This document shows positions 3,371 to 62,989 of a DNA stretch of 64,000 nucleotides, piece by piece (the first letter of the stretch is position 1; every line of letters starts with the position of its first letter). Origin of the DNA: Rhizobium favelukesii. GTDB taxonomy: Bacteria > Pseudomonadota > Alphaproteobacteria > Rhizobiales > Rhizobiaceae. The position numbers and the translations under genes are program-made. The notes beneath the pieces were generated by a model that had not been told where the DNA came from, did not search any database, and saw only the letters and a list, made by a program, of their open reading frames with translations. Location: NCBI RefSeq assembly GCF_000577275.2, contig NZ_HG916855.1, positions 62,001 to 126,000 on the forward strand, given 5' to 3'.

Positions 3371-4232
3371 CACCAGTGTTCAGCCGACAAAAGTGCGCTC
3401 CGCCGTTACCGAGCACCGGTTCGCGCGTTGGACGCTGATCCTTGCCTCGCTGATCTTCCTGACGCTGATCCTGCTTCTACCCTTGGCGGCAGTCTTCGTG
3501 GAAGCGTTCCGCAAGGGTGCCGGGGCGTTCCTCGAGGCATTGCAGGACGAGGAGACCTTTTCGGCCATTCGTCTGACCCTCATCGTCGCGGGCGTCAGCG
3601 TGCCTCTCAACCTGATCTTTGGCGTGGCGGCTGCATGGGCGATTGCCAAGTTCGAGTTCAAGGGCAAGGCCTTCCTGACGACGTTGATCGACTTGCCCTT
3701 CTCAGTCTCGCCTGTCATTTCGGGTCTGGTGTTCGTGCTACTGCTTGGCGCCAACACTCATCTCGGCCACTGGTTGAGCGCCCACGACATCAAGATCCTG
3801 TTTGCCGTTCCGGGACTGATCCTCGCCACCATGTTCGTCACCTTCCCCTTCGTGGCGCGCGAACTGATCCCGCTGATGCAGGAGCAGGGAACGGGCGACG
3901 AAGAGGCCGCACTTTCGCTCGGCGCCAGCGGCTGGCAAACCTTCTGGTACGTGACTGTGCCCAACATCAAATGGGGTCTGCTCTACGGCGTATTGCTCTG
4001 CAACGCGCGCGCCATGGGCGAGTTCGGTGCCGTATCGGTGGTCTCAGGCCATATTCGCGGACAGACGAACACCATGCCGCTGCAGGTGGAAATTCTCTAT
4101 AATGAGTACAATTTCACCGGCGCGTTCGCCGTTGCCACCCTGCTTGCATTGCTTGCGCTCGTGACCCTTGTTTTGAAGACGCTGCTCGAGATGCGATACA
4201 GCGAAGAAATAGCCGCCAGCCGACGGCACTGA
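3360..4232 (+). CDS. cysW: Sulfate ABC transporter permease CysW
   Basis: The 290-residue partner permease of CysT has six predicted membrane spans and an EAA loop ([22 protein letters not shown]). The segment [20 protein letters not shown] is characteristic of CysW proteins. The ATG lies inside the end of cysT in another frame. It is followed after 10 bases by cysA, consistent with one transcript for all four genes. Confidence 0.93.
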
Positions 4233-4242
4233 AGGAATTAGA

Positions 4243-5289
4243 ATGGAAGTTCGCGTTCAAAACTTGCGCAAGGAATTCGACCGGTTTCCGGCGTTGCACG
4301 ACGTCTCGCTCGACATCCGCTCCGGAGAGCTGATTGCGCTGCTCGGGCCGTCCGGCTCCGGCAAGACGACCTTGCTGCGCCTCATCGCCGGTCTGGAGAG
4401 CCCGACGGAAGGGCTGATCTACTTCGGCGACGAGGACGCGTCGAAGAAGACCGTCCAGCAGCGCAACATCGGCTTTGTCTTCCAGCACTATGCCCTTTTT
4501 CGGCATATGACCGTGCTTGATAACGTCTCCTTCGGTCTGAAAGTGCGCGACGGTGCGAGACGCCCTCCGAGGGCGGAAATCCGTAGGCGCGCACTGGAGC
4601 TTCTGGATCTTGTCCAGCTCTCGGGGCTGGAGAAGCGCTATCCGGCCCAGCTTTCCGGCGGCCAGCGTCAGCGCGTCGCGCTTGCGCGCGCCATGGCGGT
4701 CGAACCAACCGTACTTCTTCTCGATGAGCCTTTCGGCGCACTCGACGCCCAGGTGCGCAAGGACCTGCGCAAATGGCTGCGCGAGATCCATGACCACACC
4801 GGCCACACGACTGTTTTCGTCACGCACGATCAGGACGAGGCGATGGAGCTTGCCGACCGCGTCGTCGTGATGAGCCAGGGTGCGATTGAACAGATCGGAA
4901 CACCTGATGAAGTGTATGACAACCCGAACTCCCCCTTCGTCTTCGGCTTTGTCGGACAGTCAAACTGTCTCGACGTGCGGGTGAACGGCGGAGAAGTCTG
5001 GTTCGAGGACCGGCCCCTCGGCCTCAAGGTCGAAAACGAGGCGGATGGGGATGCCCAACTCTACTTCCGGCCACATGACATCGAATTGCGAGATGGTTGC
5101 GGTGGCTGCATCGCCGGCTTGCTGACGACCAGCCGGCGCGTCGCCGGCACGCGCCACATCGAGGTCGACATCGGCAAGGGGCTTCCACCGATCGAACTGG
5201 AACTGTCGCCATCGCAGGCCGGGAGCCTCGATCGCAGCCGGATTGCCTTCCGACCGAAGCGGTGGAAATTGTTCCGGGCAACGCCATAG
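4243..5289 (+). CDS. cysA: Sulfate/thiosulfate ABC transporter ATPase CysA
   Basis: The 348-residue ATPase energises sulfate import. It shows Walker A GPSGSGKTT (residues 35-43), the Q-loop VFQHYALF, signature LSGGQRQR, Walker B VLLLDEPFGALDA and the switch histidine in FVTHDQDEAMELADR. A C-terminal TOBE-type regulatory region follows (about residue 235 on). It is the last gene of the sulfate operon; I saw no convincing hairpin in the 270 bases after it. Confidence 0.94.
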   Translation: MEVRVQNLRKEFDRFPALHDVSLDIRSGELIALLGPSGSGKTTLLRLIAGLESPTEGLIYFGDEDASKKTVQQRNIGFVFQHYALFRHMTVLDNVSFGLKVRDGARRPPRAEIRRRALELLDLVQLSGLEKRYPAQLSGGQRQRVALARAMAVEPTVLLLDEPFGALDAQVRKDLRKWLREIHDHTGHTTVFVTHDQDEAMELADRVVVMSQGAIEQIGTPDEVYDNPNSPFVFGFVGQSNCLDVRVNGGEVWFEDRPLGLKVENEADGDAQLYFRPHDIELRDGCGGCIAGLLTTSRRVAGTRHIEVDIGKGLPPIELELSPSQAGSLDRSRIAFRPKRWKLFRATP

Positions 5290-12871: not shown

Positions 12872-13600
12872 ATGGGAAGTGAACTAGACGGCAAAGTCGC
12901 AGCCGTGACAGGCGCGGCATCGGGCATCGGATTGGCGAGCTCGGAGGCCATGCTGGCGGCGGGTGCCATGGTTGTTTTGATCGACCGGGATGAAGGTGCG
13001 TTGAAGGCGCTTTGTGAAAAGCATAGCGACCGCGCTATGCCGTTGGTCATCGACCTGTTGGATCCGTCGGAATGCGCAACTTTGGTGCCGAAGGTTTTAG
13101 CGAGCGCAGGGCGGCTCGACATTTTTCACGCCAACGCCGGGACTTACATTGGTGGCGATCTAGTCGAGGCGGATACGAGCGCGATTGACCGGATGCTGAA
13201 CCTGAACGTCAACGTGGTCATGAAAAACGTCCACGACGTTCTGCCTCATATGATCGAACGCGGCTCCGGTGATGTCATTGTAACCAGCTCGCTCGCGGCT
13301 CATTTCCCGACTCCGTGGGAGCCGGTCTACGCGTCGTCAAAATGGGCTATTAATTGCTTCGTCCAAACTGTGCGGCGGCAAGTCTTCAAGCACGGGATCC
13401 GGGTTGGATCTATCTCCCCTGGCCCGGTCATCACGTCGCTACTTGCCGACTGGCCGCCAGAAAAACTCGAAGAGGCCAAGGTCTCGGGAAGCTTGCTGCA
13501 AGCCAGCGAGGTCGCCGAAGTGGTGATCTTCATGCTGACCCGCCCTCGCGGCATGACGATCCGAGACGTGATCATGATGCCGACGAATTTTGACCTGTAA
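12872..13600 (+). CDS. Short-chain dehydrogenase, probably ribitol 2-dehydrogenase type
   Basis: The 242-residue enzyme has the NAD-binding motif TGAASGIG, the NAG motif (HANAGTY) and the catalytic set Ser (VTSSLAAH), Tyr and Lys (YASSKWA). The C-terminal ending TIRDVIMMPTNFDL and the segment FPTPWEPVYASSKWA resemble proteins annotated as ribitol 2-dehydrogenases in rhizobia. That would oxidise ribitol to ribulose, but the substrate is inferred by resemblance. The ATG has GGGAGA upstream. No other polyol genes are adjacent. Confidence 0.8.
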   Translation: MGSELDGKVAAVTGAASGIGLASSEAMLAAGAMVVLIDRDEGALKALCEKHSDRAMPLVIDLLDPSECATLVPKVLASAGRLDIFHANAGTYIGGDLVEADTSAIDRMLNLNVNVVMKNVHDVLPHMIERGSGDVIVTSSLAAHFPTPWEPVYASSKWAINCFVQTVRRQVFKHGIRVGSISPGPVITSLLADWPPEKLEEAKVSGSLLQASEVAEVVIFMLTRPRGMTIRDVIMMPTNFDL

Positions 13601-13752
13601 CTGCGCCAGGAGTTGAGAGCATCCGAGCATGGTGGCGGGCTTGGCGCTGCCTGACCAGAAGCCATCCGACGTCAACAATGGCACCGAGAACAGCATTTCC
13701 GGCATCCGATGTTGTGGCACTTGCTAGTTCCGCAGTTTTGCCGCAGCCCTAT

Positions 13753-14319
13753 TTATTGCTGTAGCGCGCTCACCGTGAGTATCGCTGAGAAAACCAGTAA
13801 GACGCCCGATCCGAACCGCCGCGCAATCAATGGCATTTGGTTGCTGCTTCCGAGAACCGTTCTGCCGACCAACAGCCAGATGGTTGATGTCAGAACGGCG
13901 ACAGCCGAGAAGCTCCCGACGGCAGCGATCGGAAGCCGGTCCTGGTCCGGTGCAATCATCGTGAGCGCGATGATGAGTGCCTTAGGATTGAGCAGTGTCG
14001 TCACAACGACATGCCGCACGCCGATGACGAGGACCGAGGCCCGTGCATCCACAACCCACAGCTTCAGCGCGAGGTAGAGCACCCACGTAGCGGAGATGAG
14101 CTTTACGGCTTCAGAAACGGCGGGATGCACCTTCAGAAAGGTGCCTGCAAGCCCAGCGACGGGGAGAACAACCGTCAAATAGGATAGAACGACCGCTACA
14201 ACAAGCACGACGGCACGCGTAAAACTAATCCCTTGCGACGCCATGGCCAGAACGGCATTGGTCGGACCTGGCAGGATAAGCAGCGCGAAGACGCTTAGAG
14301 CGAATGAAAGGTAAGACAT
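13753..14319 (-). CDS. LysE/RhtB-family amino-acid exporter
   Basis: The 188-residue inner-membrane protein has about six hydrophobic segments and the N-terminal family motif ILPGPTNAVLAMAS. The family exports amino acids or similar small metabolites. A second ATG 18 bases upstream (14337) is possible; I prefer MSYLSFALS because GGGA lies about 10 bases ahead. It stands alone, between an SDR gene read toward it and a small plus-strand gene read away from it. The substrate is unknown. Confidence 0.78.
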   Translation of the reverse strand: MSYLSFALSVFALLILPGPTNAVLAMASQGISFTRAVVLVVAVVLSYLTVVLPVAGLAGTFLKVHPAVSEAVKLISATWVLYLALKLWVVDARASVLVIGVRHVVVTTLLNPKALIIALTMIAPDQDRLPIAAVGSFSAVAVLTSTIWLLVGRTVLGSSNQMPLIARRFGSGVLLVFSAILTVSALQQ

Positions 14320-40950: not shown

Positions 40951-42156
<1,206 letters not shown>

Positions 42157-42939
42157 TTACGCGGCCTCCTTGTCGCCCTGATGGGCCTTTTTCGTGCGCG
42201 CATTGATGTCGCGCAGTGTCATGAGTTCGGTGTCGCTCGGGACCGGGGTCTCGATGACTTGGTCGGCAAACTTGATCGACCAGCCGCAATTCTCGATGAT
42301 CTGCTGTCGGCTGACGCCGCGATGGATTGAGACGACCGTAAGCTCCTTCGTCGCCGGATCCGGTTCGAGAATGCAGAGATCGGTGATGACGCGGGTCGGC
42401 CCCTTGGTCGTCATGCCGAGACGCTCGCGGTGATTGCCGCCTTCGCCGTGGCCCATGGAGGTGATGAAGTGGAGTTTCTCGACGAAGCCGCGCTTGGAAA
42501 GCGCCATGGTGATGAAGATCTGACCGCAATTGCTGGCGATCTCGGGCGCCCCACCACCACCTGGCAGGCGTACTTTCGGATGATTATAAGGGCCGACCAC
42601 CGTCGTGTTCAGATTGGCGAACTTGTCGATCTGGGCGCCGCCGAGAAAGCCCGTGGTGATACGGCCGCCTTGCAGCCAGTAGCGGAACATTTCCGGCACC
42701 GATACGGTGAAAAGCGCAGTGTCGCACAGTTCGCCATCGCCGATCGACAGAGGCAGCACGTCCGGTTTGGTGCCAACCGTGCCGCTCTCGTAGATCAGCG
42801 TGATATCAGGTGCGTGCGTCAGCCGCGCAACGTTGCAGGCGGCCGAGGGTGCGCCGATGCCGACGAAGCAGACGTCGTCGTTGGTCAGCGCGCGGGCTGC
42901 GGCAATGGTCATCATTTCGGTAGGGGTAAAGTCGTTCAT
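42157..42939 (-). CDS. pcaJ: 3-oxoadipate CoA-transferase, beta subunit
   Basis: The 260-residue subunit B of the CoA-transferase moves CoA from succinyl-CoA to beta-ketoadipate. The catalytic Glu lies in LIYESGTVG, and LPGGGGAPEIASNCGQIFIT is family-typical. GAGGAGGAAAG precedes the ATG at 42939, so the frame further upstream is not used. It forms a heteromer with PcaI, encoded 10 bases upstream. Confidence 0.92.
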   Translation of the reverse strand: MNDFTPTEMMTIAAARALTNDDVCFVGIGAPSAACNVARLTHAPDITLIYESGTVGTKPDVLPLSIGDGELCDTALFTVSVPEMFRYWLQGGRITTGFLGGAQIDKFANLNTTVVGPYNHPKVRLPGGGGAPEIASNCGQIFITMALSKRGFVEKLHFITSMGHGEGGNHRERLGMTTKGPTRVITDLCILEPDPATKELTVVSIHRGVSRQQIIENCGWSIKFADQVIETPVPSDTELMTLRDINARTKKAHQGDKEAA

Positions 42940-42949
42940 TCTTTCCTCC

Positions 42950-43798
42950 TCACGCAATCTTCCTTGCATGCTTGGCAAAGTCTTCGGGGCTCGCCTGCAT
43001 GACGTTCTCGTCGATCCATGTCTGGAAGGTATCGCGATCGCGGGCGATCTCGTCCCAGGCGATGTAAAAGGCGTTCGAGCGCGGATAGTAGCCCTGCGCA
43101 TAGGATGGGAATGCGCCGCCCGGCACGTTCGCCACCGCGCTCACGGCCCAGGTCGGCAACACGACCGAGTTTGGCGATGGCGGGTCGAGCTCATCGACGA
43201 TCTCCTCGACCGTCACGATCGAGCGCTTGGCGGCAAGCACGGCTTCCTTCTGCACGCCGACGATGCCTTCGAGCAGGACGTTGCCCTTGCGGTCGGCACG
43301 CAGCGCGTGAATGATCGTGACATCGGGGCGAATGGCCGGAACGGCGGCCAGAACCTCGCCGGTGAAGGGGCAGGTGACGGACTTGATGTTCGCATTGACC
43401 TTGGGAAGATCGGCGCCGATATAGCCGCGCAATGCGGCAAACGGCAGATTGGCCGCCCCCGCCTCGTAGGCATTGGCCATGGCCGCGTGGCTGTGCTCTT
43501 CGATTTCCAGCGGCCGTGGCCACTGGTTCTCCACCGCATCGCGGAAGCGATGCAGTGAGCCGACGCCCGGATTGCCGCCCCAGGAGAACTTCATGCCGCG
43601 CGCGGCCCCAACCCCGATCAGCTGGTCGTAGAGAATGTCTGGGGTCATGCGAACCAGATAGAGATCCTTCTTGCCCTGGCGGATCACCTCGTGGCCGGCG
43701 GCATAGGGGATGAGATGGGTGAAGCCCTCCATGGCAACGGTGTCGCCATCCCTGACGTTTTCAGCGACGGCTTCCTTCAACGATACGATCTTCGCCAT
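42950..43798 (-). CDS. pcaI: 3-oxoadipate CoA-transferase, alpha subunit
   Basis: The 282-residue subunit A of the transferase has the Rossmann-like CoA part with GDTVAMEGFTHLIPYAAGHE and the glycine-rich GMKFSWGGNPGVGSLHRFRD. It is the first gene of pcaIJF and is divergent from the IclR-type regulator pcaR, with an operator-like palindrome in the 128-base gap. All three genes look intact. Confidence 0.92.
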   Translation of the reverse strand: MAKIVSLKEAVAENVRDGDTVAMEGFTHLIPYAAGHEVIRQGKKDLYLVRMTPDILYDQLIGVGAARGMKFSWGGNPGVGSLHRFRDAVENQWPRPLEIEEHSHAAMANAYEAGAANLPFAALRGYIGADLPKVNANIKSVTCPFTGEVLAAVPAIRPDVTIIHALRADRKGNVLLEGIVGVQKEAVLAAKRSIVTVEEIVDELDPPSPNSVVLPTWAVSAVANVPGGAFPSYAQGYYPRSNAFYIAWDEIARDRDTFQTWIDENVMQASPEDFAKHARKIA

Positions 43799-45581: not shown

Positions 45582-46838
<1,257 letters not shown>

Positions 46839-48750: not shown

Positions 48751-49179
48751 TCAGATCTTCCGGAACTCGAGCTCGTATATGACTTCGTCGCCGGTCGTCG
48801 GATCCACGCCCGGCGCGCCGCTGATGACCAACCGCTTGCCGTCGATGGAGAATGGCCTGATCAGGTCGCTGACGCCCCAGGCCGGATTCCAGCTGGCATC
48901 GACATGGTGGATAACGCGGCCGTTATCGAACGTGTAGCTGCCGGCATAGGCGAGCATGCTATCGAAGAGCGCGACTTTTTCTGAATCTGTCGGCATTTTG
49001 CCGTTGGCTCTTGGCCGTTCGCTGCTGACGACCAATGCCATCATTCTACCGTCCGGTTGATAGGATAGGAAACCAACGGGATCCGGGCCCATCGCGTCGG
49101 AAACGGCGCCGGACGAAACCATCTTGCGTTTCCACGACACCATTCGCCAAGTTCCATGTAAAGCGGCTGCACTTCCCAT
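48751..49179 (-). CDS. Lipocalin-like domain protein
   Basis: The 142-residue protein begins GSAAALHGTWRMVSWKRK and has PVGFLSYQPDGRMMALVVSS, FDSMLAYAGSYTF and a C-terminal EVIYELEFRKI, the pattern of lipocalin_5-type proteins, which bind small hydrophobic molecules. I chose the ATG at 49179, which has GGGGGAG about 5 bases ahead; two earlier Met codons are possible. It lies downstream of pcaQ in the same direction and might be co-transcribed, so a link to aromatic metabolism is possible but unproven. Confidence 0.72.
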   Translation of the reverse strand: MGSAAALHGTWRMVSWKRKMVSSGAVSDAMGPDPVGFLSYQPDGRMMALVVSSERPRANGKMPTDSEKVALFDSMLAYAGSYTFDNGRVIHHVDASWNPAWGVSDLIRPFSIDGKRLVISGAPGVDPTTGDEVIYELEFRKI

Positions 49180-49240
49180 AGGCTCCCCCATGCGCCGTTG
49201 CATTCGCGGAGCATATCATGGGGCCAGCACATGGAACAGG

Positions 49241-50164
49241 CTATGGCTTTGCCACGTCTGCAGCCGCTTCCCGCAACGTCTGCATGAGGATCGATAGCGG
49301 CAGCGAGGGGATGGCATCCGTCCGCATCGTCAGGCCGACCGGTCCCTTCGTCTCGCTCGTGTCGATTGGCAGGACCTTCAACAGGCCGTCGGCGATGTCG
49401 GTGGCGACGACGCCCGTGGAAATGATCCAGATGGCGTTACTGGTGCGCACAAAGGCGCGGCCAAAGGAGTCCGAAACTGTTTCGATCTGGTTTGGCAGGC
49501 TGGCGACGCCGTTGGCGATCAGGAAGCTTTCCACAAACGGCCGGATGATCGAAGCCCGGGTGGGCATCAGGACGGTGTATTCGCCGAGGCTGGCAAAGAG
49601 CGATTGCTTGCTCTTGAGCAAGGGGTGGTCGGCACGAACCGCAAAGACGACCTGCTCGGAATAGAGATGTTCAAAGGAGAAGCCTGCCATCTTCTCCGCG
49701 CCGGCAAGGCGCCCCACAACGAGATCGAGATCCCCGACCCGCAACTGCTCCAAAAGCACTGCGTTCTCCCCCGTGACGATCTTGATGCGGCTCCAGGTGT
49801 TCTCCTTGAGGAAGAGTTCCATGGCGCGTGGCATGATGCGGGTCGACACCGTTGGCAGTGCGCCGATTCGGATCGGCGGCGCCTCGCCGAAACGCTCCTG
49901 CGAGACCGAGTCGAGCCCCTGGCGCAGCGCCGTCAGTGCCGCCCCCGCGTGGCGGAGAAAGACGTCGCCATAGCGGGTGATCTTGATGCCGCGTCCATCG
50001 CGCTCGAAGACCGCGACGCCCAGCACGTCTTCCAGCTCGCGGATCGTCTTTGTCACCGCCGGCTGGCTGACATTGAGCAGTTCGGCAGCCTTCATCACGC
50101 TTTTCTGACGCGCGACCTCGACAAACGTCTGCAGATGACGAAACTTTACGCGACTGTCGACCAC
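49241..50164 (-). CDS. pcaQ: LysR-family activator of protocatechuate genes
   Basis: The 307-residue regulator has an N-terminal helix-turn-helix (VARQKSVMKAAELLNVSQPAVTKTIRELEDVLGVAVFERDGRGI) and a C-terminal LysR effector domain. It is divergent from pcaDCHGB with a matching binding site at 50170-50185, as known for PcaQ in Agrobacterium and Sinorhizobium, where it activates with beta-carboxy-cis,cis-muconate or a related lactone. It probably also controls the gene at 54145. Confidence 0.93.
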   Translation of the reverse strand: MVDSRVKFRHLQTFVEVARQKSVMKAAELLNVSQPAVTKTIRELEDVLGVAVFERDGRGIKITRYGDVFLRHAGAALTALRQGLDSVSQERFGEAPPIRIGALPTVSTRIMPRAMELFLKENTWSRIKIVTGENAVLLEQLRVGDLDLVVGRLAGAEKMAGFSFEHLYSEQVVFAVRADHPLLKSKQSLFASLGEYTVLMPTRASIIRPFVESFLIANGVASLPNQIETVSDSFGRAFVRTSNAIWIISTGVVATDIADGLLKVLPIDTSETKGPVGLTMRTDAIPSLPLSILMQTLREAAADVAKP

Positions 50165-50169
50165 GTTTC

Positions 50170-50185
50170 ATAACTCCCGAGTTAT
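50170..50185. promoter_or_regulatory. PcaQ-binding box upstream of pcaD
   Basis: ATAACT-CCCG-AGTTAT is a perfect 6+4+6 palindrome, close to the published PcaQ pattern ATAACC-N4-GGTTAA. It lies 5 bases upstream of the pcaQ start and about 125 bases from the pcaD start, so it can serve activation of pcaDCHGB and autorepression of pcaQ. A second half-site-like CTAACC occurs near 50214. Confidence 0.8.
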
Positions 50186-50308
50186 CGAAATGCCACGAAA
50201 TATCATTTTACCTAACCAGATTAAACATTCAATTTGAACCTGGGTCTGCGCAGGATCTTTCATCAGTCGACCGCGACGTGTTGGATGTGCGCGGAGAGGA
50301 GATTGGCC

Positions 50309-51118
50309 GTGCAATTTGCCCGCATCAACGACATTGCGATCCACTATCAGCTGATTGGAGGTCCCCCCGACAAGCCAGTCATCGTCTTTGCCAACTCACT
50401 CGGGACGGACTTCCGCATCTGGCGTGACGTCATCGTCCGGCTGGCCGGGGACTATGCGATCGTTGTCTACGACAAGCGCGGCCACGGGCTTTCCGATGTC
50501 GGCCAGGTCCCCTATTCGATCGAGGACCATGCCTCAGACCTTGCCGGTCTGCTCGATCTTCTGGCGGTGAAGCGGGCTTTCATGTGCGGGCTTTCCGTGG
50601 GCGGGCTGATCGCGCAGGCGCTCTATAGGGCGCGTCCAGACATGGTGCAGGGGCTGATCCTGTGCGACACCGCCCACAAGATCGGCACGGCCGAGAGCTG
50701 GAATGCCCGGATTGCCACCGTCGCCAGCAAGGGGATCGGCAGTATCGTCGATGGCGTCATGGAGCTCTGGTTCACGCCGGCCTTCCGGCGACCGGAGAAC
50801 ACGGCCTATCACGGCTATCGCAATATGCTCGTGCGCCAGCCGGTGGAAGGTTATCTCGCCACCTGCGAGGCGATCCGCGATGCCGACTATACGGAGGCGG
50901 CTGCCAAGATCAGTGTTCCGACGATCTGCATTGTCGGAGACCAGGATGGCTCCACGCCGCCTGACCTCGTGAAGTCGACCGCCAAGCTCATTCCCAATGC
51001 CTCCTTCGAGATTATCCGCGACGCCGGCCATATCCCTTGCGTGGAGCAGCCGGACGTGCTGACCGCAATCATCAGGGCATTCATCGGACCCGCATTGCAT
51101 GGAGAAAACAACCCATGA
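50309..51118 (+). CDS. pcaD: 3-oxoadipate enol-lactonase
   Basis: The 269-residue alpha/beta hydrolase opens beta-ketoadipate enol-lactone to beta-ketoadipate. It has FANSLGTDFRIWRDV, the nucleophile elbow CGLSVGGLIAQAL, and the terminal Asp/His set (CIVGDQDGSTPP, DAGHIPCVEQP). The start is the GTG at 50309 behind GGAGAGGAG, giving the usual MQFARINDIAIHYQ. It is the first gene of pcaDCHGB and overlaps pcaC by 4 bases. Confidence 0.93.
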   Translation: MQFARINDIAIHYQLIGGPPDKPVIVFANSLGTDFRIWRDVIVRLAGDYAIVVYDKRGHGLSDVGQVPYSIEDHASDLAGLLDLLAVKRAFMCGLSVGGLIAQALYRARPDMVQGLILCDTAHKIGTAESWNARIATVASKGIGSIVDGVMELWFTPAFRRPENTAYHGYRNMLVRQPVEGYLATCEAIRDADYTEAAAKISVPTICIVGDQDGSTPPDLVKSTAKLIPNASFEIIRDAGHIPCVEQPDVLTAIIRAFIGPALHGENNP

Positions 51119-51516
51119 GTGAACTCCCGTCATCGGAGCGCTTTGAGCAAGGGATGGCCACGCGCCGTGCCGTGCTCGGCGACGCCCATGTCGACCGCGC
51201 CGTGGCAAGCTCGACGCCGTTCGACAAGCCGTTTCAAGACCTGATCACGGAAGCCGCCTGGGGACACGTCTGGTCGCGTCCGACGCTAACGCGCCGCGAG
51301 CGATCGATCGTGACCATCGCTGTCTTAGCCGCGCTCGGCCAGGACGACGAGGTGGCGATGCACGTTCGCGCCACCGCCAACACCGGCGCCTCTCGTGACG
51401 ACATCTGCGAAGCGCTGCTGCATGTGGCGATTTATGCCGGCGTTCCCGCTGCCAATCACGCCATCAAGATCGCCAAGCATGTTTTCGAACAGATGGACGC
51501 CGGCAAGGCGGCCTGA
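51115..51516 (+). CDS. pcaC: 4-carboxymuconolactone decarboxylase
   Basis: The 133-residue protein decarboxylates gamma-carboxymuconolactone to the enol-lactone. It has the AhpD/CMD fold signs [39 protein letters not shown] and [20 protein letters not shown]. It overlaps the pcaD stop (ATGA) and is followed by pcaH after 10 bases. Confidence 0.94.
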
Positions 51517-51526
51517 AAGGCATAGG

Positions 51527-52276
51527 ATGTCCGACCTCCCTAACCGCATGCCCGAAACCGGCGCCTTCTTTGCACGTGACCGAGAATGGCACGCGCCCGC
51601 CTTCACCCCCGGCTACAAGACGTCGGTCCTGCGCTCGCCGCAGCGCGCCCTGCTTTCGCTCGACGGCACGATCTCGGAGATCACCGGTCCTGTCTTTGGC
51701 CATTCGATGATCGGCGAACTCGACAATGACCTGATCCACAACTTCGCCAAGCCAGGCGAGAGCGCCATCGGCGAGCGCATCGTGGTTCATGGCCGCGTGC
51801 TTGACGAACGCGGCCGGGCGGTGCCCGGTGCGCTTGTTGAATTCTGGCAGGCCAATGCCGGCGGCCGCTACCGCCACAAGAAGGAAACCTATCTTGCCGC
51901 CATCGATCCGAACTTCGGCGGCTGTGGGCGCTCCATCACCGATGAAGACGGTCAATATGCGTTCCGTACCGTTCGTCCGGGCGCCTATCCCTGGCCGAAC
52001 GGTGTCAATGACTGGCGACCGGCCCATATCCACTTCTCGATCTTCGGCCACGGCTTTGCCCAGCGCCTGATCACACAAATGTATTTCGAGGGGGATCCGA
52101 TGATCTGGAAGTGTCCAATCGTCGGCACGATCCCCGACAAGCGCGCCATCGAGCAATTGATTGCGCCGCTCGACTGGGGCAACACAATTCCAATGGATGC
52201 ACGCGCCTATAAATTCGACATCGTGCTGCGCGGTCGCCGCTCGACGATGTTCGAAAACCGGCCGGAGGGGAACTGA
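51527..52276 (+). CDS. pcaH: Protocatechuate 3,4-dioxygenase, beta subunit
   Basis: The 249-residue iron-binding subunit cleaves protocatechuate to beta-carboxy-cis,cis-muconate. The four non-heme Fe(III) ligands can be placed at Tyr115 (GGRYRHKK), Tyr154 (PGAYPWPN), His167 and His169 (PAHIHFS); their spacing of 39, 13 and 2 equals that of the Pseudomonas enzyme. AGGAT-type ribosome site. The stop shares one base with the pcaG start. Confidence 0.95.
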
Positions 52277-52890
52277 TGGTACAGCAACTCGGCTACCTGA
52301 AGGAAACGCCTTCGCAGACGGCGGGTCCCTATGTCCATATTGGTCTGACCCCGAACGTGTGCGATATCAACGGCGTCTACGAGGCCGACCTTGGCACGGT
52401 GATGGTCAACGACAAAACGCTTGGCGAGCGCATCAGCGTCAGCGGCCGCGTCTTTGATGGTGCCGGCGCGTTGGTACGCGATGCAGTTATCGAAATCTGG
52501 CAGGCAGACAGCGCCGGCCTCTACAATAGCCCCTCTGACATGCGTGGTACGACCGATCCGAACTTCTCCGGCTGGGGGCGTTGTGCGACACGCGCCGACG
52601 ACGGCGTCTTCGTTTTCGACACGATCAAGCCCGGCCGCGTCCCTTTCAAGGACGGCCGCGAGATGGCGCCGCACATCACTTTCTGGATCGTCGCGCGCGG
52701 CATCAACATCGGCCTGCATACGCGCATGTATTTCCCCGAAGAGACCGAGGCAAACAAGACAGATCCGCTCCTCATGCGCATCGAGCAGAAAGAGCGCGTC
52801 GATACGCTGATCGCCACGCGTGAAGGATCGACCTACACCTTCGACATCCGGCTCCAGGGAGACAGGGAGACGGTGTTCCTGGATATCTGA
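52276..52890 (+). CDS. pcaG: Protocatechuate 3,4-dioxygenase, alpha subunit
   Basis: The 204-residue structural partner of PcaH has KETPSQTAGPYVHIGLTP at the N-terminus and APHITFWIVARGINIGLHTR and MYFPE further on. It lacks the iron ligands, as expected for the alpha subunit, and helps form the active-site wall. It is translationally coupled to pcaH. Confidence 0.94.
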   Translation: MVQQLGYLKETPSQTAGPYVHIGLTPNVCDINGVYEADLGTVMVNDKTLGERISVSGRVFDGAGALVRDAVIEIWQADSAGLYNSPSDMRGTTDPNFSGWGRCATRADDGVFVFDTIKPGRVPFKDGREMAPHITFWIVARGINIGLHTRMYFPEETEANKTDPLLMRIEQKERVDTLIATREGSTYTFDIRLQGDRETVFLDI

Positions 52891-52965
52891 CCCGCAAGCT
52901 GGTGCGGGACCTAGTAAACGCGACGATTCCCGGCGCAGTTATCGGTCCTTGCAAGAAAGACGCCG

Positions 52966-54018
52966 ATGACCATCTCACCTTTCGATCACCCCTTCCTCTG
53001 CGGCCTGCTCGGCGATGGCGAAACGGCGTCGTATTTCTCTGCTGATGCGGATATTCGCGCCATGCTTGCTTTTGAGGCCGCCCTCGCCAAGGCCGAGGCG
53101 GTCCATGGTCTGATTTCGCCTGATGCGGCTCGCCGGATCGGTGTCGTTTGCGCCACATTTGAACCGGATCTTTCCCAGCTCAGAGCCGCCACGGCCTGCG
53201 ATGGCGTTGTCGTTGCCGATCTCGTCAAACAGCTTCGCAAAGCCGTGGGCAGCCCGTTTTCGGATTGTGTTCACCTCGGCGCCACCAGCCAGGATGTCAT
53301 CGACACCAGCCTGATGGTTCGGCTGAAGGCCGTCGCGTTCCTGTTTTCGAACCGCCTTTCAAAGATCGCACAAGCATTCGACGACCTCGACGCGAGGTTT
53401 GGCAAGGCCCGCCTGATGGGGCGCACACGCATGCAGGCGGCCATTGCCATCACCGTGTCCGATCGTCTCCGGGCCTGGCGCGCGCCGCTCGAGGGCTATC
53501 GCGACAGGCTGACCGAACAGCGGTTTCTTGTGCAGTTCGGCGGCGCCGCCGGAACGCTTGAGACGCTTAAGGACAAGGCGCCGCCCATACGGGCCGCTCT
53601 TGCTCAGGAGCTCGGGCTTGGCGACGAGCCGCAGTGGCAAAGCCAGCGCGGGTTAATAGCAGATCTCGCCAGTCTGCTTTCCCTCATCAGCGGAAGTCTT
53701 GGCAAGTTTGGCCAGGATATTGCGCTTCTGGCGCAGGCCGGCGATGAGATCGGGCTTGCCGGTGGCGGTGGTTCGTCCGCCATGTTCCACAAGCAGAACC
53801 CAGTCGCGGCCGAAACTCTGGTTGCCCTTGCGCGTTTCAACGCAACCCAGCTTTCCGGTATTCATCAGTCGCTCGTGCACGAGCAGGAGCGCTCCGGTGC
53901 GGCCTGGACGCTGGAATGGCTCATTCTGCCGCAAATGGTTATGGCTACGGCCGCTTCGCTGCGTCTGGCATTCGAGCTGACGGGCAATATACGGCGAATT
54001 GGCGCCGCAAAATCATAA
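52966..54018 (+). CDS. pcaB: 3-carboxy-cis,cis-muconate cycloisomerase
   Basis: The 350-residue fumarase/aspartase-superfamily enzyme converts carboxymuconate to gamma-carboxymuconolactone. It has SDCVHLGATSQDVIDTS, MGRTRMQAA and the signature loop GGGGSSAMFHKQNPV. It is shorter than the roughly 450-residue Pseudomonas enzyme, which is usual for the alphaproteobacterial form. It ends the pcaDCHGB operon; its stop overlaps a second PcaQ-like box. Confidence 0.92.
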   Translation: MTISPFDHPFLCGLLGDGETASYFSADADIRAMLAFEAALAKAEAVHGLISPDAARRIGVVCATFEPDLSQLRAATACDGVVVADLVKQLRKAVGSPFSDCVHLGATSQDVIDTSLMVRLKAVAFLFSNRLSKIAQAFDDLDARFGKARLMGRTRMQAAIAITVSDRLRAWRAPLEGYRDRLTEQRFLVQFGGAAGTLETLKDKAPPIRAALAQELGLGDEPQWQSQRGLIADLASLLSLISGSLGKFGQDIALLAQAGDEIGLAGGGGSSAMFHKQNPVAAETLVALARFNATQLSGIHQSLVHEQERSGAAWTLEWLILPQMVMATAASLRLAFELTGNIRRIGAAKS

Positions 54019-54030
54019 CCCCTGAACTAT
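54015..54030. promoter_or_regulatory. Second PcaQ-like box, overlapping the pcaB stop
   Basis: ATAACC-CCTG-AACTAT fits the ATAACC-N4-GGTTAA-like PcaQ pattern in its left half and closely in its right half. It lies about 115 bases upstream of the transporter-derived gene at 54145. In S. meliloti PcaQ controls the pcaM transporter genes, so this is the expected place for such a site. Confidence 0.65.
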
Positions 54031-54144
54031 GAGTTTCGCCTTTTATTTCATTTTACATTACCGTTTTGAATGAGACACTATCGCCAAAGTTTTAGCTCTG
54101 GGCTAATCCGGCGTAGGAGTGCGCCATCGTCAATGGGAGGATTT

Positions 54145-55395
54145 ATGAAACGGTTTGTCCTGGCCGCCGTTGCGGCAATCGTCATGAGCACAGCGGCCTA
54201 TGCCGATACCATAAAGGTCGGTGTCGTCGGGCCGTTCTCGGGTCCATTCGCCCTGCAGGGCAAGAACTTCAAGGCCGGCATCGACGCTTACATGACGATC
54301 AACGGCAACAAGATCGGCGACAATACCGTGGAGGTGATCTATCGCGACCTTCCCGCCGCCGATCCGGCGCAATCCAAGGCCTTGGCGCAGGAACTGGTCG
54401 TCAAGGAAAAGGTGCAGTATCTCGCCGGCTTCTATTTCACGCCTGACGCCATGGCTGTGACGCCGATCCTCAAGCAGGCGAATACGCCGCTCGTCATCAT
54501 GAACGCCGCCACATCGGCGATTGTCACAAAGAGCCCGCTGGTGGTGCGCACCTCCTTCACGACCTGGCAGACCTCCACCCCGATCGCCAAGGTTGCCCAT
54601 GATGCCGGCGTCGCCAAGGTGATCTCTGTCGTCAGCGACTACGGCCCCGGTGTCGATGCCGAGAATGCCTTTAAGGCGGCGTTCGAGAAGGAAGGCGGGC
54701 AGGTGGTCGAGGCAATCCGCATGCCGCTGTCGACCAACGACTTCAGCCCGATCATGCAGCGCATCAAGGATTCCGGTGCGAAAGGGGTCTTCGCCTTCCT
54801 GCCGTCCGGTCCGACCACCCTCGGCTTCGTCAAGGCCTACAACGAAAATGGCCTCAAGGATGCCGGCATCAAGTTCTTCGCGCCGGGCGACCTGACGCAA
54901 GAGTCCGATCTTCACAAGGGATTGGGCTATGTGCCGCAGGCGCGCTGCGTCTTCCCTACATTGACAGTGGAGGAAAACCTCTTCGTCGGCCTGAAAGGCC
55001 GCGCCAAGACCGCCCTGGAAGAAGCCTACGACATGTTTCCGCGTTTGAAGGAGCGACGCCGAAACCTCGGCAACCAGCTTTCGGGCGGCGAACAGCAGAT
55101 GCTGTCCACGGCGCGCACGATCCTCGGCCGCCCGTCGGTACTTCTGCTGGACGAGCCACTCGAGGGGCTGGCGCCCGTCATTTGCGAGGAACTGATGGCG
55201 GCCTTCGCCGAACTTGCAAAGACCGGTGATATGACCATTCTTCTTGTGGAGCAGCGCATCCAAAGCGCGCTCGACTTTGCCGATCATGTGATCGTGCTTG
55301 AGCGCGGGCGGCTTGCCTGGGCTGGCACGCCGAAGACGCTGTCGGACGACCAGGATGCCGTCGAGCGTCTGCTGGGCGTGGGCGGTTTGCACTAA
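54145..55395 (+). CDS. Chimeric gene: Pca-type binding protein fused to the back half of a LivF-type ATPase
   Basis: The 416-residue frame has a signal peptide (MKRFVLAAVA, cleavage near residue 20) and a branched-chain-amino-acid-type binding protein up to about residue 256 (VGPFSGPFALQGK, FAPGDLTQESDL). It then turns into the second half of a LivF ATPase: GLGYVPQARCVFPTLTVEEN, LSGGEQQMLSTAR, VLLLDEPLEGLAP, ILLVEQ. Walker A is missing. The likely history is one in-frame deletion removing the end of pcaM, the two permeases, the first ATPase and the start of pcaX. The product would be exported and cannot work as an importer. GGGAGG precedes the ATG. Confidence 0.88.
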   Translation: MKRFVLAAVAAIVMSTAAYADTIKVGVVGPFSGPFALQGKNFKAGIDAYMTINGNKIGDNTVEVIYRDLPAADPAQSKALAQELVVKEKVQYLAGFYFTPDAMAVTPILKQANTPLVIMNAATSAIVTKSPLVVRTSFTTWQTSTPIAKVAHDAGVAKVISVVSDYGPGVDAENAFKAAFEKEGGQVVEAIRMPLSTNDFSPIMQRIKDSGAKGVFAFLPSGPTTLGFVKAYNENGLKDAGIKFFAPGDLTQESDLHKGLGYVPQARCVFPTLTVEENLFVGLKGRAKTALEEAYDMFPRLKERRRNLGNQLSGGEQQMLSTARTILGRPSVLLLDEPLEGLAPVICEELMAAFAELAKTGDMTILLVEQRIQSALDFADHVIVLERGRLAWAGTPKTLSDDQDAVERLLGVGGLH

Positions 55396-55755
55396 CTCGC
55401 GACCACGTCGCGTTGCGGTTCCAACAGAAGCGTCCTGCCCGCGCCTGGCGTTCTCATACTATCGACGCAGGAGCCGACAATTGTATTCGCGCAGTTGAGA
55501 AACCATTTAATAGACAAGAAATGCGGAACGTGCCGCTTTTGTCTTGCCAGGCGTCATCCTCCGTTCACCAAAAACAAACCATAAGCAGTTGCGTTCTGAC
55601 GTGAAAACCGATTGCTTAGGAATATCTACCATTCTGCTGGCAGCTGGTAGAAACGGTATGAAGGATACAGGGCAGCCTATGGAAATCAGCGCTTCGCTTG
55701 TTCATCAAAGTATGATTACGATGGCGTTGTGGGGTCGGCCCATTTTGAAGACGCG
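55396..55755. other. 360-base gap before the MBL-fold gene
   Basis: No gene was recognised on either strand. The region is relatively AT-rich in its middle (about 55490-55640), which fits a promoter region for the following gene. No clear hairpin follows the chimeric transporter gene. Confidence 0.35.
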
Positions 55756-56586
55756 ATGAGTAAAGATCTGTTTCAGGTAAAGTTTTGGGGCGTTCGCGGC
55801 AGCATCCCGGTCTCGGGCCCCGAATTCGATCGCTACGGCGGCAACACCTCGTGCATCGAAATTCGCTGCGGTGAACACCGGATGATCTTCGACGCCGGAT
55901 CAGGCGTACGCGAAGCCGGGCTTGCCATGCTGAATGAGGACGTCCGGAATGTCGACCTGTTTTTCAGTCACTGTCACTACGACCACATCATCGGCCTGCC
56001 GTTCTTCAAGGCGATTTACTATCCCACCATCGACCTGACGATCTGGTCCGGCCATCTTGACGGAAAGATGAGCACCCGCGAGATGATCGAGCAGTTCATC
56101 AGCCCGCCATGGTTCCCTGTCAAAACCGACATCTGCCAGGCGACGATGAGCTTTCGCGACTTTCATGCGGGTCAGACGCTGGAGCCACGGCCCGGCATCA
56201 AGATCAAGACCTTCATGCTGAACCATCCCGGCGGGGCGATCGGGTACCGTGTGGAATGGAAGGGACGCTCCGTGGCGCTGATCTACGACATCGAGCATAT
56301 TCCCGGCGTCTATGATCCGGTTGCGCTGGAGATGATGAAAGACGTCGATCTTGCCGTTTACGACTGCACCTACAACGAAGACGAGATGCAGCGCTTCAAG
56401 GGCTTCGGCCATTCCACATGGCAGCATGGTGTCGAACTCGCCAAGATGGCCGGCACCAAGCAGTTTGCCCTGTTCCACCATGCACCCTCGCGAACAGATA
56501 CCCAGCTGGAGCGGATGGAACACGAGGCACAGGCTTCGTTCCGAGGAGCTTTCGCCGCAAGGGACAATCAGGTCCTCGAAATCTAG
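55756..56586 (+). CDS. MBL-fold metallo-hydrolase
   Basis: The 276-residue protein has the metallo-beta-lactamase motif HCHYDH (residues 72-77) after a WGVRGSIPVSGPEFDRYGGNTSC start typical of the PhnP/cAMP-phosphodiesterase-like branch. Further metal ligands are His in LNHPGGAIGY, Asp in ALIYDIEH and His in LFHHAPSRTD. It may be a phosphodiesterase; a role in cyclic-nucleotide turnover would fit the cyclase-rich neighbourhood but is inferred. The ATG at 55756 is preferred over an upstream GTG/ATG frame. It overlaps the convergent deacetylase gene by 4 bases. Confidence 0.82.
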   Translation: MSKDLFQVKFWGVRGSIPVSGPEFDRYGGNTSCIEIRCGEHRMIFDAGSGVREAGLAMLNEDVRNVDLFFSHCHYDHIIGLPFFKAIYYPTIDLTIWSGHLDGKMSTREMIEQFISPPWFPVKTDICQATMSFRDFHAGQTLEPRPGIKIKTFMLNHPGGAIGYRVEWKGRSVALIYDIEHIPGVYDPVALEMMKDVDLAVYDCTYNEDEMQRFKGFGHSTWQHGVELAKMAGTKQFALFHHAPSRTDTQLERMEHEAQASFRGAFAARDNQVLEI

Positions 56587-57332
56587 CCAAGCAGATCGCG
56601 CGCCGACATCCAGGCGGCGCCCGGATGATGCCCGGTCTCTTGGAAGAGACGGGTCAGGAACTCCCATTCCGACGCGCCATGCACCAGATGGTGGGTGAGT
56701 ATGCCGACCGGCTCATCGTCCTTTGCAAAGCGAGCCTGCAATTGCGCGACCAGGTCTGCGACCAGATCGCCATGCGGCCGGTTCCCGCGCTGTTTGCGGC
56801 TGTTGACAACGTCGACATGCGTGTTCAACAGGCGGATCGGACCGCCGGCCTCAGCCCTGCCGAATATCGACAGAGCTTTGAAGTCCCGCGCGCCAAGTTG
56901 GGGGACCAGTGCCTCGCTTATTCTGTTCCAGGGCGGCACCAGCATCGGGACCAGCCTTGGGCCGTAAAGGCCTTGAAGGGCGACAAGTCCATCGTGCAAT
57001 TGCCCGAGCACGACGTCGGCCGACCGGTGGCGGCCGAGTTCCTGTTTCTTTTCGTCTGGGCCGGCATGGTTTGCATGCGACCAGCCGTGCACGGCCACAA
57101 GGATGTGGCCTTCTCCAGACAGACGTGTCGCCAGGGCTTCTCCGGTAGAGGCCGGAATGACCGCAATTGTTAGCGGGAGGCAAGCCCGGCGAGTGACCTC
57201 CAGCAGGGTTTCGAGTGCGTCAGTCGGCTCGGTGGCATCGTCGTCGCGCAACCAAAATCGTGCCTGGCAACCTGCTGCCCGCCAGCGGTCCAGCTCCTGT
57301 CGCAGTGGGGTCCAGATCTGATCGTCGGTCAT
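56583..57332 (-). CDS. Polysaccharide-deacetylase-like protein
   Basis: The 249-residue protein has FWLRDDDATEPTDALETLLE, with the paired Asp seen in carbohydrate esterase family 4-like folds, then VHGWSHANHAG (His-His metal site) and PPWNRIS. These fit a deacetylase or a DUF2334-type relative acting on a glycan. It overlaps the upstream glycosyltransferase gene by 4 bases (ATGA), so both act in one pathway. Confidence 0.75.
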   Translation of the reverse strand: MTDDQIWTPLRQELDRWRAAGCQARFWLRDDDATEPTDALETLLEVTRRACLPLTIAVIPASTGEALATRLSGEGHILVAVHGWSHANHAGPDEKKQELGRHRSADVVLGQLHDGLVALQGLYGPRLVPMLVPPWNRISEALVPQLGARDFKALSIFGRAEAGGPIRLLNTHVDVVNSRKQRGNRPHGDLVADLVAQLQARFAKDDEPVGILTHHLVHGASEWEFLTRLFQETGHHPGAAWMSARDLLG

Positions 57333-61810: not shown

Positions 61811-62989
61811 ATGAACGACGTATCAAATGAAAGATTCTTTGCCGACGTGCCGGTTTTCACCGACTTCGAGCGCGTCACCGATACCAGCAACTATCACCCG
61901 CTCCCCGACGGCTGGTTCCTGGCGCTCGCCGACATCGTCGGTTCGACGCAGGCGATCGCGGCCGGCCGCTACAAGGACGTGAACATGGCCGGCGTCAGCG
62001 TCATTTCGGCGGTGCTGAATGCGGTTGACAAGGGCGACTACCCGTTCGTGTTCGGCGGCGATGGCGCCGTGGTCGCATTGCCGGGAGGACTGGAGGGTTT
62101 AGCGCGTGGCGCATTGGCGGCGGCGCAGCGATGGGTTGAGGAGGAAATGGGCCTGACGCTGCGCATTGCGGTCGTGCCTCTCACCGATATTCGCAAGGAA
62201 GGCCTGGACGTTCGCGTCGCGCGTCATGCTGCCAGCCCGTTCGTCACCTATGCGATGTTTGCCGGCGGTGGAGCCAGTTGGGCCGAACGCCAGATGAAGA
62301 GCGGACGCTATGGTGTTGACGCCTCACCGCCCGGCACACGGCCGGATCTGACCGGTCTGTCGTGCCGATGGAGCCCAATCGCGGCACACAACGGCGAGAT
62401 TGTCTCCATTATCGCCGTACCGGCCGAGGGCGGTCGCCCCAGCGCGGCGTTCCGCAAGCTCGTGATGGAGGTGGTGGCCATCTCTGCAGAGCAGGGCCGC
62501 GGCGGCCACCCGGTTCCTCCGGACGGCCCCGAATTTGCCTTTTCGATGAGGGGCGTCGATCGAGAGGCGCGGGCAACAGCAATGCCGGGAAAGCGGTTGA
62601 AGCAGAAGCTGTTCATCATGCTTCAAATCGTTCTCGTGGTCGTCTTGCACAGGCTGGGCGCCAAGTTCTTCGGCTTCGATGCCCGGCGTTACACGCAGGA
62701 CGTTTCCGGAAACTCTGACTTTCGCAAGTTCGACGATGGCCTGAAGATGACGATCGATGTCGACGCGCAACATCTCGGCCGCATTGAGGCGCTCCTCGAA
62801 GAGGCGAAAGCGAAGGGCATTGCTCGTTTTGGTCTTCACCGGCAGGCTTCAGCGCTGATGACCTGTTTTGTTCCCACGCCGCTTTCGCGCGATCACGTGC
62901 ACTTCATCGATGGCGCCAGCGGCGGCTACGCCGTCGCCGCGAGCCAGATCACAGGCAAGAAGCTGTCTGCGGTCAACATCACGCCTTGA
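61811..62989 (+). CDS. DUF3095 protein with a cyclase-like N-terminal domain
   Basis: The 392-residue protein starts with a nucleotide-cyclase-like fold (FLALADIVGSTQAIAAGRYK, PFVFGGDGAVVALP; about residues 30-190), where the first Asp and the GDG resemble class III cyclases. The rest is the DUF3095 region (YHPLPDGWF, FSMRGVDREARA, DDGLKMTIDVD). A hydrophobic segment (FIMLQIVLVVVLHRLG, about 270-285) may contact the membrane. Enzymatic activity is not certain. It overlaps the convergent dehydrogenase gene by 11 bases. Confidence 0.8.
   Translation: MNDVSNERFFADVPVFTDFERVTDTSNYHPLPDGWFLALADIVGSTQAIAAGRYKDVNMAGVSVISAVLNAVDKGDYPFVFGGDGAVVALPGGLEGLARGALAAAQRWVEEEMGLTLRIAVVPLTDIRKEGLDVRVARHAASPFVTYAMFAGGGASWAERQMKSGRYGVDASPPGTRPDLTGLSCRWSPIAAHNGEIVSIIAVPAEGGRPSAAFRKLVMEVVAISAEQGRGGHPVPPDGPEFAFSMRGVDREARATAMPGKRLKQKLFIMLQIVLVVVLHRLGAKFFGFDARRYTQDVSGNSDFRKFDDGLKMTIDVDAQHLGRIEALLEEAKAKGIARFGLHRQASALMTCFVPTPLSRDHVHFIDGASGGYAVAASQITGKKLSAVNITP

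Follow-up and report, generated by a model that had tools for sequence, protein, structure and literature searches.

How does a single open reading frame come to begin as a periplasmic binding protein and to end as an ATPase, and is the outcome a new protein or the remains of old ones? The question is raised by an ORF at 54145-55395 of a 64,000-nucleotide stretch (the window) that starts from base 62,001 of plasmid pLPU83d of the root-nodule bacterium Rhizobium favelukesii LPU83. In both the ORF list and the sequence, the frame is open from the ATG at 54145 to the TAA at 55395 and comprises 416 codons and a stop. A first-pass annotation, made from the sequence alone, had proposed that this ORF was created by an in-frame deletion within a transporter of the PcaQ type (pcaMNVWX), that its N-terminal 256 residues are a periplasmic binding protein and its rear the back half of a LivF-type ATPase without Walker A, and that both permeases and the other ATPase have been lost. 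Each of these claims withstands comparison with other strains and species, as detailed below, and we conclude, with a probability of roughly 0.93, that a loss-of-function deletion left this ORF as its scar.

The 416-aa chimera consists of residues 1-256 of PcaM fused in frame to residues 81-240, that is, the last 160, of PcaX (Table 1), and a chimera split after residue 256 is likewise present in R. favelukesii T136, as found by tblastn against the loci of relatives. The Pfam profile Peripla_BP_6 matches chimera residues 22-258 over profile positions 1-234 of 343, and ABC_tran matches residues 251-339 over positions 52-136 of 137; because these matches cover the profiles only partly, both domains of the chimera are incomplete. 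Inspection by eye identifies a signal peptide, MKRFVLAAVAAIVMSTAAYA, at the start of the PcaM part and, in the PcaX part, the motifs YVPQ, LSGGEQ and LLLDEP, which we take to be the Q-loop, signature and Walker B of ABC ATPases, whereas Walker A is lost. A PcaMNVWX transporter, which imports the plant aromatic protocatechuate, is composed of a complete type I substrate-binding protein (PcaM, 390 aa), two permeases (PcaN and PcaV) and two ATPases with Walker A (PcaW and PcaX). Here, only residues 1-256 of PcaM are left, PcaN and PcaV are absent at the locus in LPU83 and in T136, and, in T136 alike, PcaW is absent and PcaX is reduced to residues 81-240. Since only halves of a binding protein and of an ATPase are left, the latter without Walker A, and the permeases are missing, the gene content strongly argues that the transporter cannot work.

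The provenance of the ORF becomes apparent from the comparison with strain T1473, which is 99.7% identical to the window up to 54913 and resumes from 54912, with 3,310 extra bases in between. This alignment puts the join, which the first-pass annotation had located in frame near 54913, after codon 256 (54910-54912). In the five-gene allele, the left flank runs on as CTTC|CCGCG and the right flank enters as GCTC|ACAAGG, so that only TC is common to the two (54912-54913, the BLAST overlap), and what has been removed is the rest of PcaM, PcaN, PcaV, PcaW and the Walker A half of PcaX. Strain T1470 is identical to T1473 over the 20,014 bases compared, and both strains hold all five genes, with 99.7% identity to the window on either side of the join and 3,310 additional bases there; being identical here, the two count as one observation. 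Set against a five-gene allele that is nearly identical, the locus thus displays one clean join, as expected of a deletion-fusion pseudogene.

The polarity of the change follows from the outgroups. The first-pass annotation had suggested a comparison with relatives that carry the full transporter, and such relatives exist: Rhizobium sp. CF122 (G029), R. mesoamericanum STM3625 (G001) and R. cauense (G008) are collinear with the window on both sides and carry pcaM-N-V-W-X in between, and R. tibeticum is also collinear and carries the missing genes. Because the outgroups have these genes, the event was a deletion. Among 307 stretches that encode a PcaM relative, the best 80 were kept as named loci, and all five genes are found in 77 of these 80 when tblastn matches to the Rhizobium sp. 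CF122 proteins are required to start within 16 residues, to cover 92% and to contain no stop. Of the remaining three, L101 and L125 differ only in the first 17 residues of PcaV, and the contig of L138, 3,304 bases long, stops within pcaV. In 15 relatives, PcaM, PcaN, PcaV and PcaW are all present and the end of pcaX aligns at least ~3.3 kb 3' of the pcaM part. Across 37 genomes of the genus (our own included), PcaM is found at 82% identity or more in 33, in open frames of at least 391 codons; G027 and G028 have only 40-44% matches, and G022 and G030 have none at E <= 1e-40, so the absence of this importer is not itself unique.

Table 1. Features of the pca region, in window coordinates, with the evidence for each (scores in bits, followed by the cut-off of the family model)
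Feature	Position	Strand	Evidence
deletion join	54911-54913		comparisons with T1473/T1470, Rhizobium sp. CF122, R. mesoamericanum STM3625, R. cauense and R. tibeticum
pcaM'	54145-54912	+	first 256 of the 390 codons for the substrate-binding protein PcaM; differs from T1473 PcaM by two nonsynonymous codons (254/256 residues identical)
'pcaX	54913-55395	+	codons 81-240 and the stop of PcaX, a LivF-type ATPase of 240 codons; Pfam, alignment to five-gene alleles
PcaQ-like box ATAACCCCTGAACTAT (ATA-n10-TAT)	54015-54030	+	pattern and conservation; overlaps pcaB stop codon
pcaB, complete	52966-54018	+	NF004631, 571.2 (371)
pcaG, complete	52276-52890	+	TIGR02423, 253 (126.25)
pcaH, complete	51581-52276	+	TIGR02422, 363.9 (296.4)
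pcaC, complete	51091-51516	+	TIGR02425, 201.6 (155.7)
pcaD, complete	50234-51118	+	TIGR02427, 354.4 (255.85); true start probably 3' of the listed TTG
perfect palindromic PcaQ-like box ATAACTCCCGAGTTAT	50170-50185	+	pattern; between pcaQ and pcaD
pcaQ regulator, complete	49241-50164	-	TIGR02424, 431.4 (303.8)
pobA, 4-hydroxybenzoate 3-monooxygenase	45591-46838	+	TIGR02360, 682 (538.7); match C62:107666-108835, window 45666-46835
pcaF thiolase, complete	40951-42156	-	TIGR02430, 686.9 (597)

So could the five genes be present in the organism and have been lost from the draft by assembly collapse? Over the 17,801 bp compared, the join included, plasmid pT136a of strain T136 (NZ_CP088009.1) does not differ from the window, and it is the sole record among 214 matching plasmid records in which one place covers at least 80% of window 52900-56700; the LPU83 assembly presumably comes from another laboratory than that of T136. 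The LPU83 genome is indeed a draft, with 62 contigs in the version used here and 63 in Table 1 of PMC12981098, which is the one point that speaks for collapse; against it, the assembly details given in the same paper describe T136 as a Flye assembly of PacBio reads (2,176x), and the join there is the same at 100% identity. Furthermore, the window lies inside a single 1.93-Mb contig (C62, plasmid pLPU83d), and the flanks of the breakpoint share only 2 nt, so that no repeat is available to collapse. The same join in LPU83 and T136, together with the lack of a breakpoint repeat and of any long match to the lost DNA in the genome, leads us to regard collapse as effectively excluded, since it would require both assemblies to have made the same error. 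The first-pass annotation had named long reads that reveal the missing genes as the finding that would refute the chimera; the PacBio-assembled strain instead has the identical join. A second copy of the missing genes elsewhere in the LPU83 genome is also rejected, given that the removed DNA, in its Rhizobium sp. CF122 version, finds only 73- and 31-base matches in a search with this relative's DNA that a diverged copy could escape, and that, among the 150 places scored in the search with the chimera protein, no other match to the PcaM half exceeds 29% identity.

Given that T136 and LPU83 are identical here, they represent one event rather than two. The FastANI values relative to LPU83, 99.88% for T136 and 99.17-99.18% for T1470 and T1473 in the data from PMC12981098, fit one deletion in the branch that leads to LPU83 and T136. 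The protein search with the chimera listed 120 of the 8000 candidates scored, such that a rarer relative could escape, and among these 120 a single one, P0001, spans 97% of the chimera, the coverage of the remaining 119 being 58-69%. P0001 comes from one contig, and the longest contig given for it, at 128,943 bases, has the plasmid length of neither LPU83 nor T136, so that a further assembly may carry the chimera.

These comparisons show that, in the ancestor of LPU83 and T136, ~3.3 kb was removed from inside pcaM to inside pcaX, probably by illegitimate recombination at the 2-nt match. By luck the join is in frame, so that a 416-codon ORF still follows the original start, signal peptide and PcaQ-like box; one join in three falls in frame by chance, and the open frame is hence no evidence of selection in itself. 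If PcaQ still induces this ORF, the product would be a non-functional protein that is probably exported and degraded; both its export and its induction are predictions, the former from a signal peptide recognized by eye and the latter from a box located by pattern.

An alternative is that the chimera is a new functional protein, such as a periplasmic aromatic binder or a decoy, that is maintained by selection. The open frame, the near identity of the upstream region and box to those of T1473, and the conservation of almost all PcaM residues that are left (Table 1) are compatible with this possibility. However, the chimera differs from T1473 by only 2 synonymous and 3 nonsynonymous codons (1 + 2 in the pcaM part, 1 + 1 in the pcaX part), a pattern that does not appear to differ clearly from that of the neighbouring genes (synonymous + nonsynonymous: pcaB 4 + 2, pcaG 1 + 3, pcaH 1 + 1, pcaQ 1 + 0). 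The open ORF, with 5 differences that are too few to demonstrate decay, also counts against the reading as a dead remnant; yet the deletion is too young to show either decay or constraint, and youth alone accounts for the intact frame. Moreover, the chimera is devoid of PcaM residues 257-390, whereas the solved relatives 4EVS and 4F06 match PcaM over residues 20-387, and its second half is a piece of a cytoplasmic-type ATPase without Walker A that would go to the periplasm. We consider a new function highly improbable. The scar at 54145-55395 is an ordinary loss of function by short-homology deletion, possibly under relaxed selection.

The putative control region outlived the transporter. The first-pass claim that a PcaQ-like box is retained upstream stands, for a predicted site defined by pattern and conservation (Table 1): T1473 has the same box, and 1 of the 126 bases between pcaB and the ATG differs (54134). 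The form ATA-n10-TAT is the element cited for PcaQ in PMC5002191. The centre of the box is 122.5 bp upstream of the chimera ATG, compared to 65.5 bp in S. meliloti (PMC5002191), so the promoter layout is not identical to that of S. meliloti, and the box departs at two positions from ATAAC-n6-GTTAT, a stricter palindrome. An element of the form ATA-n10-TAT occurs at -140..-105 of pcaM in 50 of the 80 named loci (best 80 of 307), against 2.6 expected from base shuffles; in another set of relatives, an element of the same form is found upstream of pcaM in 16 of 29 loci, the other 13 being without the exact form. Just 3' of the PcaQ-like box, at 54037-54065, a separate block, TTTATTTCATTTTACATYACC, is shared without change by 38 of the 80 named loci (best 80 of 307) and may be part of the promoter. 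A perfect ATAAC-n6-GTTAT is present at 48911-48926, within an ORF at 48751-49203 (minus strand) that adjoins pcaQ; the only other perfect copy in the window is the box between pcaQ and pcaD.

What, then, keeps the ring-cleavage genes, which are complete (Table 1), in place? In the presence of pobA and the pca catabolic genes, PobA would make protocatechuate inside the cell, where it is probably used without PcaMNVWX. Thus, the ring-cleavage genes would have been kept most likely because 4-hydroxybenzoate (through PobA), and perhaps hydroxycinnamates, give internal protocatechuate. By position, the two CoA-transferase genes at 42157-43798 are pcaIJ, but TIGR02429, the model of the pcaI type, reaches only 24.8 bits there and has its one match over the cut-off on another contig (C10). 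The same plasmid carries a second pcaF over the family cut-off (C62:293271-294467), besides that at window 40957-42150.

Might another importer have taken over? In the LPU83 genome, the aromatic acid/H+ symporter model TIGR00895 matched 50 places, none over its cut-off, and this model also matches in 14 of 14 control genomes, which makes it unspecific here; the PcaK model NF053517, applied to the three best TIGR00895 proteins, has a cut-off of 770 bits and gave them scores of 154.6, 87.2 and 56.1. Judged by its surroundings, the best candidate for an aromatic importer is an MhpT-like MFS protein in C59:1851000-1857000 (NF008586, 417.2 bits, cut-off 410), which adjoins a p-hydroxycinnamoyl-CoA hydratase/lyase (458 bits, cut-off 276) and perhaps takes up hydroxycinnamates or phenylpropanoids. 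Beside these two genes, there is an acyl-CoA ligase in two overlapping frames of 256 and 367 codons (positions 3518-4961 of this segment, L072, minus strand); its matches in only 7 genomes among 30 relatives, at 51-53% identity, are single frames of 540-606 codons, and the ligase may thus be broken. Another HAAT operon on C62, at ~48.3-51.0 kb and outside the window, has a binding protein that is 26% like PcaM; it was not accepted as a replacement, its urea-binding-family scores being sub-threshold. The first-pass statement that uptake must depend on another system thus goes further than the evidence, and it may be that LPU83 is simply poor at scavenging external protocatechuate.

The five-gene allele carries a change of its own. 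In pcaW of T1473 and T1470 (L057/L058, locus positions 13408-14109), codons 5-25 have been lost through an in-frame deletion of 63 bp, as seen against R. tibeticum, Rhizobium sp. CF122, R. mesoamericanum STM3625 and R. cauense; this deletion is new here, and is found in none of the 79 named related loci that reach pcaW (best 80 of 307). In an alignment of 84 PcaW rows, namely the 80 named loci (best 80 of 307) plus T1470, T1473, T136 and R. grahamii BG7, 79 rows extend over residues 1-254 and one over 1-253, those of T1470 and T1473 begin from 24, and T136 and L138 have none. An alignment of the complete PcaW with 1G9X/1G6H, a solved LivG-type ATPase, begins at residue 6 of PcaW and residue 9 of the solved protein, and the stretch missing from the short PcaW matches the start of that ATPase; codons 5-25 presumably encode the first strand together with the loop in which ABC ATPases have the aromatic residue that stacks on adenine. 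T1470 and T1473 were assembled with different programs, as stated in the assembly information of PMC12981098, and the agreement between them indicates that the 63-bp gap is probably real. Thus, the LPU83/T136 and T1470/T1473 lineages each carry a change in this importer.

This second change raises the possibility that the ancestor of R. favelukesii already had a failing importer, owing for instance to the pcaW deletion, and that the 3.3-kb loss hit a dead operon. The lack of codons 5-25 in T1470 and T1473 is in line with such a sequence of events; nevertheless, pcaW is complete in R. tibeticum, the Pfam domain is nearly as strong in the short PcaW as in the complete one (98.8 vs 103.2 bits), and the ancestral state of pcaW is unreadable because LPU83 and T136 have lost the region. 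Furthermore, relative to R. tibeticum, synonymous changes outnumber nonsynonymous ones in the codons that remain of pcaM, N, W and X, which implies that constraint acted on the importer during most of that time. A dead ancestral operon accordingly seems to us unlikely, though worth keeping in mind, and the preferred reading remains the loss of function by the 3.3-kb deletion itself. We also tentatively entertain a broader and rather speculative view, in which R. favelukesii is a species that is losing this importer by separate events, the 3.3-kb deletion in LPU83/T136 and the 63-bp pcaW deletion in T1470/T1473, and keeps ring cleavage for internal protocatechuate, in a shift away from the scavenging of external aromatics in alfalfa and sweet-clover soils.

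The interest of the locus lies in this within-species polymorphism together with the second change, in pcaW. According to the mutant data quoted from PMC4495286, a pcaM mutant of Rhizobium leguminosarum grows more weakly on protocatechuate, with no such defect on 4-hydroxybenzoate, and competes less well for nodule infection although it nodulates normally alone. The LPU83 locus thus records how a species has recently lost, in part of its strains, an importer whose binding protein, in R. leguminosarum, contributes to this competitiveness, as judged from the mutant. LPU83 and T136 versus T1470 and T1473 are named strains in which the role of external protocatechuate uptake in alfalfa rhizospheres can be approached. 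If the short PcaW is inactive, neither sequenced R. favelukesii lineage would have a functional importer, and the five-gene strains would not be clean positive controls. For annotators, the message is that ORF 54145-55395 should not be called an ABC transporter protein. In the literature library searched, the one entry that joins favelukesii with protocatechuate is PMC9069715, on Bradyrhizobium; the whole words 'protocatechuate' and 'pca' are absent from the OR191 genome paper (PMC9048898), and, among the papers listed on fused ABC proteins (10 of 17), no title or abstract opening describes a fusion of this kind.

How does the locus compare with known systems? PcaMNVWX is represented by RL3906-RL3910 in R. 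leguminosarum and by the pcaMNVWX operon of Sinorhizobium meliloti, which is described, along with its PcaQ box, in the relevant sections of PMC4495286 and PMC5002191. The likeness extends to the 5' half of PcaM, the 3' half of PcaX, the PcaQ-like box upstream and the adjacent pca genes; in contrast to these systems, the locus lacks the two permeases and the LivG-type ATPase, while PcaM has lost its end and PcaX its Walker A half, which leaves a remnant and not a transporter. The other counterpart is more general. Deletion-fusion pseudogenes of bacterial operons are a general kind, and the LPU83 locus resembles them in that two distant genes of an operon have been joined by a short-homology deletion, with the loss of the intervening genes; the sole difference is that, here, the reading frame is still open.
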